From the NCBI RefSeq assembly GCF_001651805.1, contig NZ_CP015839.1, positions 3,472,001 through 3,536,000 of the forward strand: a DNA stretch of 64,000 nucleotides. Direction: 5' to 3'. A model generated the notes under the pieces. The model was not told the DNA's origin. It did not search any database and saw nothing but the letters and a program-made list of their open reading frames with translations. This document shows, piece by piece, positions 51,001 through 55,663 of the stretch (position 1 is the first letter of the stretch; every line of letters starts with the position of its first letter). The DNA comes from Marinobacterium aestuarii (GTDB taxonomy: Bacteria; Pseudomonadota; Gammaproteobacteria; Pseudomonadales; Balneatricaceae). The translations under genes and the position numbers were made by a program.

Positions 51001-52362
51001 ATGAAAAACCGATTTTCAGTTGGGATACTGAGCGTCGCTGTGCTGCTGTCACTGACCAGTTTTTCAGCCACCGCGGCGCAATCCGGCTCCCACCCGGACG
51101 ACAACTGCAGCGCCATCGACGGCTGGTTTCCCCATAACCAGACACCTGAGCCCGACAGCGCAGATTTCACCGCCGATTCGGCCTGCTCCTTTCACCGCTG
51201 GTCCTGGCAGATGTTTCTATGGCTGACGCAGGAGGTCGAGGGCAAGCCGCGCTTCCTCTCTTTCCAGTCGCCCTACACACTGCTGAACCTCGACAACCGC
51301 ACCAGCATGCTGCCCCGGCTGGAAAAATCGGGCTCGCCCAGAGCGCTGGATGAATATCTCCAGGCCGGCACCGAAGGCATCATGATCGATCAGAATGGAC
51401 GGGCGCTTTATTATTCCCAGTACCTGAACGACACCTTTGTATCCTTTATTCAGGACCAGAAGCTGCTCGATCCCGACGTCGTCCGGCAGTTCGACCCGCA
51501 CACTCCCTTCCCGGTTGAAACACTGGAACTCAAGGCATCCTGGAAAGTCGTGATGCCGGGTGAAAGCACGGCTGGATTTTTCACCATGCCATCGTCCGTC
51601 TATAAACTGGTCAACAAGGATGGCGTCATTGTTGTCGACGACACCCAGCCGATCGACGCCACTTTGGCACTGGTGGGTTTCCATATCGGCGGCGTGGTCA
51701 AGGACCATCCGGAGATGATCTGGGCCACCTTCGAGCATAAGGACAATGCCCCCGATGTACCGGCCACATTCGATGCCAATACCCTGATATCCGACCGGGA
51801 CTGGACCTTCTACCAGGCCAACACGCCCTATTCGGGCTGCAACATCAACCCCGCCAAATCCGTCGAACTCAAGCTGGACGAGGCCACCCAGACCCTGACG
51901 CCGATCACCCAGGTCTGCCGCCGCTATGCCTTTGGCAACGACCCCAACCAGACGACGCAGAGCGTCCCGACCAACATTGCCGACGTCAAGCGCCTGAACA
52001 GCAGCGTGCTGTCGCAACTGTCCGGCGAGGATGTCTGGTCCAACTATTTCCAGGTAGGCGCCATCTGGTTTGCACCCGGTGCCACGCTTGAACCCAATAT
52101 GGCCCTGGCGACCGATACCGAGGGCGGCAAGCAGCTGTTGACCGGCTCGCTGAAGCTGTCCAATGCGGCGGTCGAAACCTTCACCCAGTCCCAGAGCACG
52201 ATGAACAACTGCTTTCGTTGCCATAACACCCTGCACCGCTTTCCCCCGAACACCTCCCTCGACCCGCTGCCGGGTCTCAACCTGAATATCAGCCACGCGT
52301 TCGTGAATCTGTATTTCTGGTCTCAGGAGCTGGCACAGCAGAAAAAGGCCGGCACCAACTAG
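51001..52362 (+). CDS. Secreted protein with a single CxxCH haem motif, partner of the LodA-like enzyme
   Basis: 453 residues from ATG 51001 (GGGA nine bases before). Signal peptide ~5-28 (LSVAVLLSLTSFSATAA). Then CSFHRWSWQMFLWLTQEVEGKPRF (~61-84), a motif shared with a family of large secreted mono- or dihaem-like proteins, and one c-type haem site CFRCH at 404-408 near the C-terminus. Three or four other Cys lie in the N-terminal quarter (DDNCSAID, DSACSFH). Not a classical cytochrome. It sits 61 bases before the LodA-like gene on the same strand; inference: it accepts electrons from the quinone enzyme or assists its export. Confidence 0.75.
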   Translation: MKNRFSVGILSVAVLLSLTSFSATAAQSGSHPDDNCSAIDGWFPHNQTPEPDSADFTADSACSFHRWSWQMFLWLTQEVEGKPRFLSFQSPYTLLNLDNRTSMLPRLEKSGSPRALDEYLQAGTEGIMIDQNGRALYYSQYLNDTFVSFIQDQKLLDPDVVRQFDPHTPFPVETLELKASWKVVMPGESTAGFFTMPSSVYKLVNKDGVIVVDDTQPIDATLALVGFHIGGVVKDHPEMIWATFEHKDNAPDVPATFDANTLISDRDWTFYQANTPYSGCNINPAKSVELKLDEATQTLTPITQVCRRYAFGNDPNQTTQSVPTNIADVKRLNSSVLSQLSGEDVWSNYFQVGAIWFAPGATLEPNMALATDTEGGKQLLTGSLKLSNAAVETFTQSQSTMNNCFRCHNTLHRFPPNTSLDPLPGLNLNISHAFVNLYFWSQELAQQKKAGTN

Positions 52363-52423
52363 ACCCATCGCCTGCGCCTATACCGGGCCTTAGCATCTTC
52401 ATCGAATTACAGGGTGTACCCTT

Positions 52424-54478
52424 ATGAGCAACAGCATTTTTCGAATTCATCCCGCCATCAATTTCGGCCGTGTCGGCAACAGCGATGACTACTACCTGGC
52501 ACCGGAAACCGCCGCCGGTGAAGTGCTGGACAAAACCAGCGGACTCTTTGGCGGACTGCCGATCCAGCCCGGGACTGAAGATACGCCCATCGACGCCCAG
52601 GCCTTTCGCGACGCCAGCCAGAATGTCGTGCGCCAGGCCGCGCGCTATCGCATCTATGCCTACGACGCCCTGCAACAGCGCTACCCGTCCGAGGATCCCG
52701 GGCGCGAAATCCGGATAGGCGATTGCATCGACGGCAAGACGATCACCGATATTGTCTGGACCGTTCATCTGGCCAACAAGAAAAACAACAACTTCAAAAT
52801 CACCAGCAGCAATGGCCAGGAGGAAGGTATCGATGCTTACCAGGATAACGCTACCCCGCCGCTGCGAAACCCCAGCTACGGCAATGACCTGGGCGATGCA
52901 ACCCGGCGTACCCGGCTGGTGATCGATGCAGGCCCCCGCGCCATCCGTTCGACGGATGCACAGCAGGTGATCAGGTTCAGCGCGGACTCGCCCTGCAGCC
53001 ATGCCGACGCCCAGGGAACCATTCAGCCGCTGCCCGACTACCCGCTAAGCTTTCCGGGCGATCATTTCGACAACCTCAATCCTGAACTGGGCTGCATCAA
53101 ATCGCTCGGCGATCTGAGGATAGAGGCGGGTACCGGCCGGCTGATCGTGGCCGGCGGCTTCGGCGAGGCCTTCTCCTTTGTCGATGCCAGCGGCGAAAAA
53201 CCCACACTGAAAGATGCCATCGACAACGACGGCTGGTTCGACGATGTCGCGGATGGCCCGGTGGAGGCCGTGATCCTGTTTGATGACGGCTCCGCGGTCA
53301 GCGCCACCGGCGCCTGGTTCGTCTCCACGGACCCTGCCTATGCGCCGCAAACCCGCAACGTGGTGTCGACCTGGGACGATGTCTTCAGCACCTGGGTCGA
53401 GGAGCTGGCACTGATCCCTTCGCTGTTCAGCAATGGCCAGTACAATGCCGATTACCCGGCCTCCTTCAATCAGGATATCCTGCCGGTATTTCACGGCGCC
53501 TTTCTGCAGCGCTGGAATACCAGCCTCCCGGCACAGGGCGTACAGGGCCACAACTGGGTCGCCGCGATCAAGCCGTCCGACGACCCTAAAGCCAAGATTC
53601 CCAACTTCCAGTCGCTGATTCGCGACCCCAACGCCAGCGAAGAAGACAGCCAGGGCGTGAAGATGCCCCTGGCCCTGGGCGATGCGCAGAAAAGCTTTCT
53701 GTCACTCACCCGCACCCAGTACTTTCTGATGATGCAGTGGTACAACGGCAAAAGCCTGGAATCGGGTGCACCGCTGGGGGCCGGCGAAAAGCTCGACCGG
53801 GTGGTGCTGGAAAACTGCCTGGGCGGGCGCTACTCCCCCGGTATCGACCTTACGTTCATCGTGCGGGATATCAACCTGTACCAGCAGCAGTGGCAGGGAA
53901 GCACCGGGCCACTGCGCATCAACCGCAAGCCGCTGAACTATGCCACCAGCACTCAGGGCCAGCCCTTTCTGGATGTCGGCTATATACCGCTGCGCAGCAC
54001 CCAGGTCGAGCCCGGCGATCTGAGCAAGTTCATGTCCCAGCCCTGGCACACGGACTACAACAGTTGCGCCGTGCACACGCCGGATCCCAATCCGTCGGAC
54101 AACAATACCCTGTACTGGTCATGGCCTGCGCAGCGGCCGGTGCAGGTGTATCCCGTGGGCGCCTGCACCTTCGATGCGCAACGCAAGGTCTGGAACCTGG
54201 GCGGACAGGTGTTCAGCATCCGGGGCGACGGCGAGGGCGCACAGAACGGCACCCACACCAATCTGCCGCAGAACGAGGGGCGCTATCAGCAATATATCGA
54301 CTTCATGCATAACTGGCACAAAACCGGCTTTATCATCCAGGGCAGCCAGATCAAGGACGACCAGGGCGGCGACTACGGCAGTGACAAGTTCCTCGAAGTC
54401 GCAAGCCTGTACAGCGCCAATGGCGATATAGTGCAGCCCTGGCCCACGTCGGTAACACCGACAAAGCCGGATGCCTGA
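52424..54478 (+). CDS. LodA/GoxA-like cysteine tryptophylquinone oxidoreductase
   Basis: 684 residues (LodA of Marinomonas 726). LodA-type enzymes oxidise a primary amine of an amino acid at a Cys-Trp quinone made by post-translational crosslink, giving peroxide. The N-terminus IFRIHPAINFGRVGNSDDYYLAPE is typical. Crosslink candidates: Cys465 in LENCLGGRYSPGID and Trp565 or Trp567 in LYWSWPAQRPVQVYP, about 100 residues apart. No signal peptide. AGGG about ten bases before ATG. The flavoprotein gene follows at once, as lodB does in known operons. Substrate (lysine, glycine or other) cannot be told. Confidence 0.88.
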   Translation: MSNSIFRIHPAINFGRVGNSDDYYLAPETAAGEVLDKTSGLFGGLPIQPGTEDTPIDAQAFRDASQNVVRQAARYRIYAYDALQQRYPSEDPGREIRIGDCIDGKTITDIVWTVHLANKKNNNFKITSSNGQEEGIDAYQDNATPPLRNPSYGNDLGDATRRTRLVIDAGPRAIRSTDAQQVIRFSADSPCSHADAQGTIQPLPDYPLSFPGDHFDNLNPELGCIKSLGDLRIEAGTGRLIVAGGFGEAFSFVDASGEKPTLKDAIDNDGWFDDVADGPVEAVILFDDGSAVSATGAWFVSTDPAYAPQTRNVVSTWDDVFSTWVEELALIPSLFSNGQYNADYPASFNQDILPVFHGAFLQRWNTSLPAQGVQGHNWVAAIKPSDDPKAKIPNFQSLIRDPNASEEDSQGVKMPLALGDAQKSFLSLTRTQYFLMMQWYNGKSLESGAPLGAGEKLDRVVLENCLGGRYSPGIDLTFIVRDINLYQQQWQGSTGPLRINRKPLNYATSTQGQPFLDVGYIPLRSTQVEPGDLSKFMSQPWHTDYNSCAVHTPDPNPSDNNTLYWSWPAQRPVQVYPVGACTFDAQRKVWNLGGQVFSIRGDGEGAQNGTHTNLPQNEGRYQQYIDFMHNWHKTGFIIQGSQIKDDQGGDYGSDKFLEVASLYSANGDIVQPWPTSVTPTKPDA

Positions 54479-54502
54479 GTGCATCAGGGGGGCGATGGCA
54501 GC

Positions 54503-55663
54503 ATGAACGCGCGCGATAGCACCCGGCTACCCACCGCCATTATAGGCGCCGGGCCCGCCGGGCTCGCCACCGCGATTTCGCTGCAGCAGCAAGGCTATCC
54601 GTGCCCCCTGCTGCTGTTCGATGCAGGGCGGGGACTGTCCCCCCGAATAGGCGAATCCATCCCGCCGGCAGCGACACCCCCATTAAAAGACCTGTTGGGC
54701 CCCGCGGCAGCGCAGCATCTGGCGCGGCACCTGGTCTGCCCCGGCAGCATGTCGGTCTGGAACAGCGAACAGCCGGGGCACAACGACTTTCTGTATGATC
54801 TGTCAGGCCAGGGTTACCACCTGGACCGGGCCCTGTTTGAGCAGCAGCTCAGCCAGGGTGTGGACTGGCGCGGCATAGAACACTACCAGGGATACCGCCT
54901 GCTGCGCGCAGAATCCCGGGAACCGGGCTACGACCTGGTGTTTCGCACCCCGGACGCGCGCGAGGAAAGCGTCCGGGCGGGCTTCGTGGTCGATGCTACT
55001 GGCCCGGCGTCGGTGTTTGCGCGCAAAACAGGCATCGCGCGGAATCTGCTGGATGAAGTGCTGTTTGCCTGCGCGCGCTTTACCCTGCCCGACAACAGCG
55101 CTGGCCTGCAGCATTCACTTATCGAAGCGACCGCAAACGGCTGGTGGTATGGGGCACGGCTGCCGGACAATCAAATGATCCTGACACTCTGTTCGGACCG
55201 CGCGCTGATCAAGCAGCAGCGGTATCAGCAACCCTGGGCCTGGCTCGACGCACTCCAGCAGACAACCTGGCTGCGCCATCAGATTCCCGCCTGCATTAGC
55301 CAGGCGGCGGCCGAAACACTCGATATACTGTTGCGGCCGGCCTTCTCGTCGATCCTGTCCGCCGTCGCCGGCGACCGCTGGCTGGCCGTGGGCGATGCCG
55401 CCGCCTGCTATGATCCGATCTCGTCCGCCGGCATCACCAAGGCCCTGCTGCAGGGACAGCAGGCCGCTGCCGCCATGGTGCAGTACGCGCAATCGGGGGA
55501 AGGCACAGCCCTGGCCGACTACCAGGACCAGGTGTTTGCGGATTTCAATCAGTATGCCGGGGTTCGGCGACAGCTATATCACGGCGAGACACGCTTCTGG
55601 AACGCGCCCTTCTGGCGACGACGACGCGGCGACATCAAGGATAGTCCGCTGGCGCGCACTTAG
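54503..55663 (+). CDS. LodB-like FAD-dependent maturation protein
   Basis: 386 residues from ATG 54503, 24 bases after the LodA-like stop; a GTG at 54479 is possible, but a G-rich ribosome site (54486-54491) fits the ATG better. FAD motif TAIIGAGPAGLATAISLQQQG (~11-31), RIGESIPPAATPPLKDLL (~47-64), and VGDAAACYDPISSAGITKALLQGQQAA (~295-321), the pattern of LodB/GoxB and halogenase-like flavoproteins. Needed in the known systems to form the quinone in the partner. Convergent with the DUF3565 gene, sharing stop-codon bases. Confidence 0.88.
   Translation: MNARDSTRLPTAIIGAGPAGLATAISLQQQGYPCPLLLFDAGRGLSPRIGESIPPAATPPLKDLLGPAAAQHLARHLVCPGSMSVWNSEQPGHNDFLYDLSGQGYHLDRALFEQQLSQGVDWRGIEHYQGYRLLRAESREPGYDLVFRTPDAREESVRAGFVVDATGPASVFARKTGIARNLLDEVLFACARFTLPDNSAGLQHSLIEATANGWWYGARLPDNQMILTLCSDRALIKQQRYQQPWAWLDALQQTTWLRHQIPACISQAAAETLDILLRPAFSSILSAVAGDRWLAVGDAAACYDPISSAGITKALLQGQQAAAAMVQYAQSGEGTALADYQDQVFADFNQYAGVRRQLYHGETRFWNAPFWRRRRGDIKDSPLART

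Follow-up and report, generated by a model that had tools for sequence, protein, structure and literature searches.

An exported single-haem protein encoded with a LodA-like quinone enzyme and a LodB-like flavoprotein in Marinobacterium aestuarii: a conserved unit

The stretch of Marinobacterium aestuarii DNA analysed here (the window; 64,000 nucleotides, positions 3,472,001 to 3,536,000 of contig NZ_CP015839.1, assembly GCF_001651805.1) carries three successive genes, encoding an exported protein with one c-type haem site (HAEM), a LodA-like protein of the cysteine tryptophylquinone (CTQ) enzymes and a LodB-like flavoprotein (Table 1). A first-pass annotation, made from the letters alone, had described this set, and the list of open reading frames (ORFs) and the sequence bear it out: the three genes lie at the coordinates given there, in one orientation, and the protein encoded directly upstream of the lodA-like gene does combine a signal-type N-terminus with one CxxCH motif. 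The window's LodA-like protein has no such motif. The start of the haem gene at ATG 51001 has a ribosome-binding-like sequence in front of it; TTG 50995, where the listed ORF begins, is an alternative. Published work is cited below by PMC number, in each case for part of the article.

Table 1. Genes and residues of the three-gene unit (positions in the window)
Feature	Position	Strand	Basis
Exported single-haem c-type protein (HAEM), 453 aa	51001..52362	+	ORF; AAGGGA before ATG; homologues upstream of lodA in several phyla
Predicted signal-peptide region, about residues 1-26, hydrophobic	51001..51078	+	Read from sequence
CFRCH haem c attachment motif, residues 404-408	52210..52224	+	Sequence; CxxCH invariant in 90/90 aligned homologues
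Lys178 of HAEM	51532..51534	+	Aligns with the P460 haem cross-link lysine (Lys70/Lys78/Lys106); hhalign and P460 HMM
His228 of HAEM	51682..51684	+	On the P460 distal-carboxylate position; low-probability hhalign alignment and NsP460 chains
LodA-family CTQ protein, 684 aa	52424..54478	+	PF17990 and PF18417 above cut-off
Asp544, equivalent to LodA Asp512	54053..54055	+	Alignment; 92/92 LodA rows
Cys548, CTQ cysteine, equivalent to LodA Cys516	54065..54067	+	Alignment; 92/92 LodA rows
Trp567, CTQ tryptophan, equivalent to LodA Trp581	54122..54124	+	Alignment; 92/92 LodA rows
LodB/GoxB-like flavoprotein, start GTG 54479 or ATG 54503	54479..55663	+	NCBIfam maturase_LodB, GoxB and QhpG matches

The earlier wording 'LodA/GoxA-like' proved apt. 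The protein exceeds the cut-offs of both LodA Pfam domains (PF17990, 166.7 bits, E 9.7e-49, cut-off 26.3; PF18417, 118.9 bits, E 2e-34, cut-off 25) and misses both NCBIfam equivalog cut-offs (LodA, 205 of 600 bits; GoxA, 136 of 750). A LodA-family profile of six relatives matched LodA in the PDB (3weu, E 5.4e-63). Aligned to LodA through the close homologue L049, the window protein has the CTQ residues and the aspartate intact; conservation of these residues was counted over 92 LodA rows, with the shortened L066 excluded. The LodB-like protein matches the NCBIfam models maturase_LodB (233 bits, cut-off 400), GoxB (204, cut-off 400) and QhpG (158, cut-off 240), all below cut-off. The set thus resembles the LodA/LodB lysine epsilon-oxidase of Marinomonas mediterranea (group IA) in both Pfam domains, in the CTQ cysteine and tryptophan, in the aspartate and in having a LodB-type flavoprotein gene directly downstream. 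It differs from that system in sequence identity (∼30%, measured on L049), in scoring far under the LodA cut-off and in the extra haem gene upstream.

A placement in the published LodA groups is suggested by Oceanospirillum beijerinckii, for which proteins of groups IB and III are tabulated (PMC4417212, Table 2). We found two lodA genes in this species. One has a 977-aa frame, as expected for the group III catalase fusion; the other, haem-type gene (L053), and hence the haem type as a whole, should therefore belong to group IB. The sections and passages of that 2015 survey covered here report several LodA-like groups as uncharacterised and show no upstream haem gene; in its main text 'cytochrome' occurs 0 times and 'heme' once, for catalase-fold domains. 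A search of the open-licence PMC literature by titles, abstracts and passages found no description of a haem partner of LodA.

The haem gene accompanies lodA in many other genomes. Among 293 genomes of the window's order, haem homologues (E <= 1e-5) occur in 15 and LodA in 11, with both in 8 (Fisher p 8e-10); the other 11 genomes of the window's family hold neither. Four of the 14 LodA genes of the order, the window's included, directly adjoin a haem gene, and one further LodA, of another clade, has one ∼3 kb off on the opposite strand. Neighbourhoods were mapped for 12 of the 14, and the haem search gave no match near the other 2.

The annotation had proposed following the three-gene order across genomes. 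We scanned named GTDB genomes with six LodA proteins and kept the best 80 of 215 relatives, a sample biased towards the query. L073, a shortened LodA with a haem gene upstream too, was dropped, leaving 81 LodA genes in 79 loci (L035/L122 and L032/L056 are identical rows). The haem gene lies directly upstream in 43 of the 81, one short ORF further upstream in 2 (L081 and L106) and ahead of a PF12902 gene in another 2 (L092 and L109). Of the rest, 24 have a PF12902-type gene but no haem gene, 9 have neither, and 1 is cut by a contig end. Genes were called 'PF12902-type' by similarity to the L036 protein or to a profile built from proteins of this kind, with a direct Pfam search for L035 only. 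Spacing is 110 bp or less in 45 of the 47 directly adjacent haem-LodA pairs of the whole set. Chance neighbourhood was rejected, and the adjacency taken as a real module, because the order recurs across so many genomes. Two further arrangements were seen: in L081 (6998-10946) two overlapping LodA-like genes stand in tandem behind an aberrant 652-aa haem homologue, and in four Janthinobacterium and Rugamonas loci (L105, L111, L112 and L113) a LodA of the same clade has no haem or PF12902-type gene and a gene of ∼120 aa directly upstream.

A quick LodA tree (97 rows) places the window in a supported clade of 24 rows, all 24 of which have the haem gene. Within the larger clade of long LodA proteins (85 rows), 48 have the haem gene, 26 a PF12902-type gene, 2 both (L109 and L092), 8 something else, and 1 is cut. 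Partner labels are clustered on the tree (0 of 500 shuffles as low, for either label), and at least 3 changes between haem and PF12902 are needed when L092 and L109 are counted as single-partner, or 2 when they are set aside. From these numbers the partner slot appears to have switched a few times, one sister pair holding both genes. The annotation had considered that the haem gene might be absent beside other lodA-like genes of the clade; its constancy held among the nearest relatives and failed in the wider clade, where many loci have PF12902 instead. On a tree of the haem family (78 rows) the LodA neighbourhood requires 4 changes, and 4 are also forced by the supported branches. The haem-LodA pairing therefore seems to have been gained or lost repeatedly, the exact number being unsure on such long branches.

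The haem family itself is strictly conserved at a few positions. All 90 distinct aligned proteins keep Lys178, His228, Tyr349 and the CxxCH residues, and 89 keep Trp181; no methionine that might serve as an axial ligand is invariant or nearly so. The 90 proteins comprise 78 plus 10 others, L081 and the second copy of L042; a copy from L201, the second Eilatimonas copy (L135) and most plasmid matches were excluded. Matches to PF12151, a mannan-binding domain, occur in 3 of 61 haem homologues (best E 4.5e-9), and some members may thus carry an extra binding domain. PF12902 is absent from the Pfam families listed for the 61 members and from the window protein.

Several weak but concordant lines make it likely that the family is related to cytochrome P460/c'-beta. 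The AlphaFold2 model of the window protein is confident (predicted local distance difference test, pLDDT, 87.5; predicted template-modelling score, pTM, 0.87), and in a Foldseek search cytochromes P460/c'-beta fill 10 of the first 23 rows (1, 3-6, 8, 10-12 and 23; best E 0.092). For the distant member L041 (model pLDDT 81.5) the first row is a P460 (E 0.10). The commonest sub-threshold Pfam match of the family is PF16694 (14 of 61 members; best E 0.0028, 18.5 bits). A hidden Markov model (HMM) built from 11 P460 proteins reached 9.4 bits for the best of the 61 haem proteins, compared with at most 0.5 bits on 61 reversed and 1.4 bits on 305 shuffled copies, and 10 of its 12 best domains cover the lysine strand. 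In hhalign the FPxG....K strand of P460 falls on the Lys178 strand and the distal-carboxylate position on His228 (E 0.0025). The column of that position is marked by NsP460, of which two PDB chains differ at the residue taken as 131; roles of P460 residues are those given in PMC11928373. The distal carboxylate of hydroxylamine-oxidising P460 (Glu96/Asp102) is not found there, the low-probability hhalign alignment placing His228 at this point. The haem protein thus resembles P460/c'-beta in its single C-terminal CxxCH, in its modelled beta strands and in a strand with the cross-link lysine position. It differs in length (∼450 aa compared with ∼150-200), in a long insert before CxxCH, in the histidine just mentioned and in missing the PF16694 cut-off. 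An ordinary-sized cytochrome P460 family protein is encoded elsewhere in the M. aestuarii genome, outside the window (G000:C1:2319960-2320361; L153).

The individual lines have limits. The window protein gave no match to Pfam or NCBIfam at E <= 1, and none of the 61 members reaches the PF16694 cut-off (27), which leaves the P460 link below curated cut-offs; plain membership of the P460 family was rejected on this ground. For 5 of the 7 members with available coordinates the best PF16694 stretch covers the CxxCH region, and for the other 2 it covers the lysine strand. No Foldseek row of the window model has E <= 0.001, the TM score per target is ∼0.3, and for L041 a P460 appears once among the 50 rows shown. 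The hhalign probability is just 12%, the exact FPxG....K motif occurs in 25 of 61 members (the window protein reads FPVE), and the reversed and shuffled copies do not control for the common CxxCH. A PDB sequence search gave weak P460 matches with a smaller haem alignment; these were gone with the larger one, which returned only an unrelated pilin and CxxCH-driven matches.

The company kept by the haem family away from LodA is informative. A haem homologue lies directly upstream of VioB-N homologues, which correspond to the first ∼580 residues of VioB, in L041, twice in L042 and in Gloeothece (L242). The curated VioB model matches the L041 protein (1.4e-12, up to model position 581 of 1003) and one L042 protein (8e-5); the other L042 protein and that of L242 are tied to VioB only through L041. 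On three plasmids a VioB-N homologue is instead followed by a gene annotated as ferritin-like, a label checked with Pfam for the first only. The 7 VioB-N homologues with readable neighbours thus have a haem gene beside 4 and a ferritin-like gene beside 3; of 369 genomes searched more widely, just 2 had such homologues, and their contigs (3-4 kb) did not extend to neighbouring genes. In VioB proper, PF12902 is joined to this N-terminal part in a single protein. Haem and PF12902 genes therefore share one slot in two unrelated contexts, LodA and VioB-N.

The two genes are not strict alternatives. Burkholderia lata (L092, 2398-6995) and a Burkholderiales metagenome-assembled genome (L109, 4489-6974) have a haem gene, a PF12902-type gene and lodA in a row, and strict mutual exclusion was rejected on these two loci. 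In Okeania (L083, 2335-10573) a PF12902-LodA pair and a haem-LodA pair stand in tandem, their LodA proteins coming from different clades. A third arrangement is a LodA of ∼1240-1260 aa with a C-terminal PF14518 (Haem_oxygenas_2) domain (L100, 7001-10711; L130, 6980-10756); no haem or PF12902-type gene was found in either locus. PF14518 and catalase-fold fusions have been reported in other LodA-like proteins (PMC4417212). The same article mentions PF12902 genes adjoining fungal lodA, so the association of PF12902 with lodA is partly known already. In two Chromobacterium loci (L230, 4716-8896, G313; L229, 5246-8741, G303) a PF12902 gene upstream of lodA-lodB stands beside violacein genes including VioB; in a Chromobacterium genome with the PF12902 gene, lodA and lodB, the VioB and VioC genes adjoin. 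Two other Chromobacterium genomes have a LodA of the long clade. Peroxide data for Chromobacterium violaceum were rejected as a guide to the haem type, the C. violaceum-like LodA lying in another clade with PF12902 as its neighbour.

Other contexts involve different enzymes. On an Azospirillum ramasamyi plasmid (L243, 4539-8380) the haem homologue is followed by a PF12318 small subunit (just above cut-off) and a GMC oxidoreductase. A similar GMC set is found in L040 (4697-8635), where the small protein resembles the Azospirillum one and has no Pfam match, and a GMC-like gene stands beside the haem homologue of L209. In L243 and L040, where the small subunit is of the sorbitol-dehydrogenase (SLDH) type, the haem homologue sits as if replacing the usual cytochrome subunit. 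A cassette of a tyrosinase, an unknown protein of 580-600 aa with no Pfam match and a haem homologue is present in L043, L202 and Paracoccus denitrificans PD1222 (L237, 1035-6050). For many further haem homologues no partner could be recognised among the adjacent genes.

Export signals were called with a heuristic of our own, which over-calls (17 of 77 LodB proteins flagged as a check). It flags 60 of 64 haem homologues, 0 of 86 long-clade LodA proteins and 0 of 27 PF12902-type proteins. The haem protein is thus predicted to be exported while LodA has no signal, and any direct hand-over between them must explain this. M. mediterranea LodA is secreted and its LodB stays inside (PMC2855505), so LodA may nevertheless reach the haem protein.

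Since the same pair recurs in many bacteria, the haem protein and the LodA-like enzyme probably work together, in chemistry not yet described. We tentatively favour, as plausible rather than probable, a CTQ amine or amino-acid oxidase that the LodB-like flavoprotein matures and whose products are handled by a catalytic haem protein dedicated to it. LodA would oxidise its substrate with O2 to an imine or aldehyde and H2O2. The haem protein would be an enzyme with an enlarged P460 fold; its haem would be open and reactive, possibly with a cross-link to Lys178 and His228 acting as the distal base. It would consume what LodA releases: the peroxide would be used or removed, and the imine perhaps oxidised or coupled. 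This step is modelled on VioB and RebD, which act after VioA and RebO: enzymes of this type couple the imine made by an amino-acid oxidase (PMC9705886, PMC10851217), and VioB is described with haem b and catalase activity (PMC9705886). As in these pairs, the oxidase gene here adjoins one for an iron partner; PF12902 is part of VioB, and VioB-N homologues have either PF12902 or haem genes as neighbours. The pairs differ in that VioA is a flavoenzyme and in that our haem protein is exported and has no PF12902 match. What is observed is the three-gene order, the CTQ residues, the invariant Lys, His and CxxCH, and a haem or PF12902 gene in one shared slot, both beside LodA and beside VioB-N. A partner that can be either a c-type haem protein or a ferritin-like one is easier to reconcile with a chemical step than with a respiratory wire, and the shared slot suggests a catalytic iron partner for oxidase products rather than a plain electron carrier. 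The full form of the idea, in which a CTQ protein and a P460-type, lysine-cross-linked haem with a distal histidine carry out imine or peroxide chemistry of the VioA/VioB kind outside the cytoplasm, the haem and ferritin-like partners being mostly alternative, we regard as unlikely.

Several points count against our proposal. Besides the limits of the P460 evidence listed above, the slot-sharing argument is softened by L092 and L109, which hold both genes; the placement of the family beside a GMC oxidoreductase and an SLDH-type small subunit suggests an electron acceptor; and the two proteins differ in export signal. Within group IB a Caulobacter LodA-like protein is reported to be involved in peroxide generation (PMC4417212), evidence that is not usable for the haem type. 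Caulobacter has LodA_N and PF12902 matches, and the solved ferritin-like structure 3hl1, whose organism (Caulobacter) is named in PMC9705886, is close to the PF12902 partner (2.4e-84).

The first-pass annotation had proposed a tryptophylquinone dehydrogenase that passes electrons to the haem. The companion is indeed conserved, and the GMC/SLDH analogy lends the idea some support; the inference that the enzyme is a dehydrogenase is not supported, given a haem protein that resembles the ligand-binding P460/c'-beta haems, the PF12902 slot and the PF14518 fusions. As a reading, a quinohaemoprotein dehydrogenase feeding the respiratory chain, like quinohaemoprotein amine dehydrogenase (QHNDH), is possible, though rather doubtful, and it is not the best supported. 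An exported protein with one c-type haem adjoins the CTQ enzyme, in A. ramasamyi (similarly in L040) a gene of the haem family stands ahead of those for a PF12318-type small subunit and a GMC oxidoreductase, and QHNDH provides a precedent by pairing CTQ with a haem subunit (PMC7876137). The joint presence of haem and PF12902 genes in L092 and L109 also means that the two need not do the same job. QHNDH and the present unit are alike in encoding CTQ and c-type haem proteins together and in the QhpG match of the LodB-like protein. They differ in that the alpha subunit of QHNDH carries two haems and its small gamma subunit thioether cross-links (PMC7876137), compared with one haem and a 684-aa LodA here. 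Electron transfer is further disfavoured by the slot being filled in many sister operons by PF12902, which is not a cytochrome, by the LodA-PF14518 fusions, by the lack of an invariant methionine ligand (though the invariant His228 could be one), by the missing export signal of LodA and by the low potentials of wild-type P460/c'-beta proteins (-205 to -424 mV; PMC11928373). No redox potentials of CTQ oxidases were found in the open-licence PMC literature.

A purely protective role, in which the haem protein destroys the H2O2 made by LodA as a catalase or peroxidase and forms no product, appears improbable. Group III LodA proteins do include catalase-fold domain fusions (PMC4417212), and within the P460 group a ferryl species and peroxidase-like activity are described for NeCP-beta (PMC11928373). 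The lysine-cross-linked NeP460, however, has no such activity and gains it in the K70A variant (PMC11928373), whereas Lys178 is invariant here, and in M. mediterranea the lod operon, as described, consists of lodA and lodB alone (PMC4417212). Least probable, by a small margin, is a maturation factor that completes CTQ as MauG does tryptophan tryptophylquinone (TTQ): the haem gene lies within the apparent operon, and TTQ formation involves haem proteins, which may also complete the CTQ of QHNDH (PMC7876137), but LodB is the factor described as required for LodA (PMC4417212), PF12902 fills the slot in sister operons, and members of the haem family also adjoin GMC flavoenzymes and tyrosinase cassettes, neither of them known to contain a tryptophylquinone.

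The unit of haem, LodA and LodB genes is real, conserved and, as far as the literature was searched, undescribed, and its members belong to known kinds or near them. We met no description of a pairing of two self-made cofactors, CTQ and a P460-type lysine-linked haem. LodA-like enzymes are widespread, and their gene partners offer a handle on what this clade does; the usual haem or ferritin-like companion speaks for a second reaction step. The unnamed haem family, with its strictly invariant lysine and histidine, invites spectroscopy, and a connection of CTQ enzymes with P460 haems and with VioB-type coupling enzymes becomes testable. Whether these operons encode an oxidase with a product-using haem protein or a dehydrogenase with a haem acceptor is a question that simple spectra can decide.

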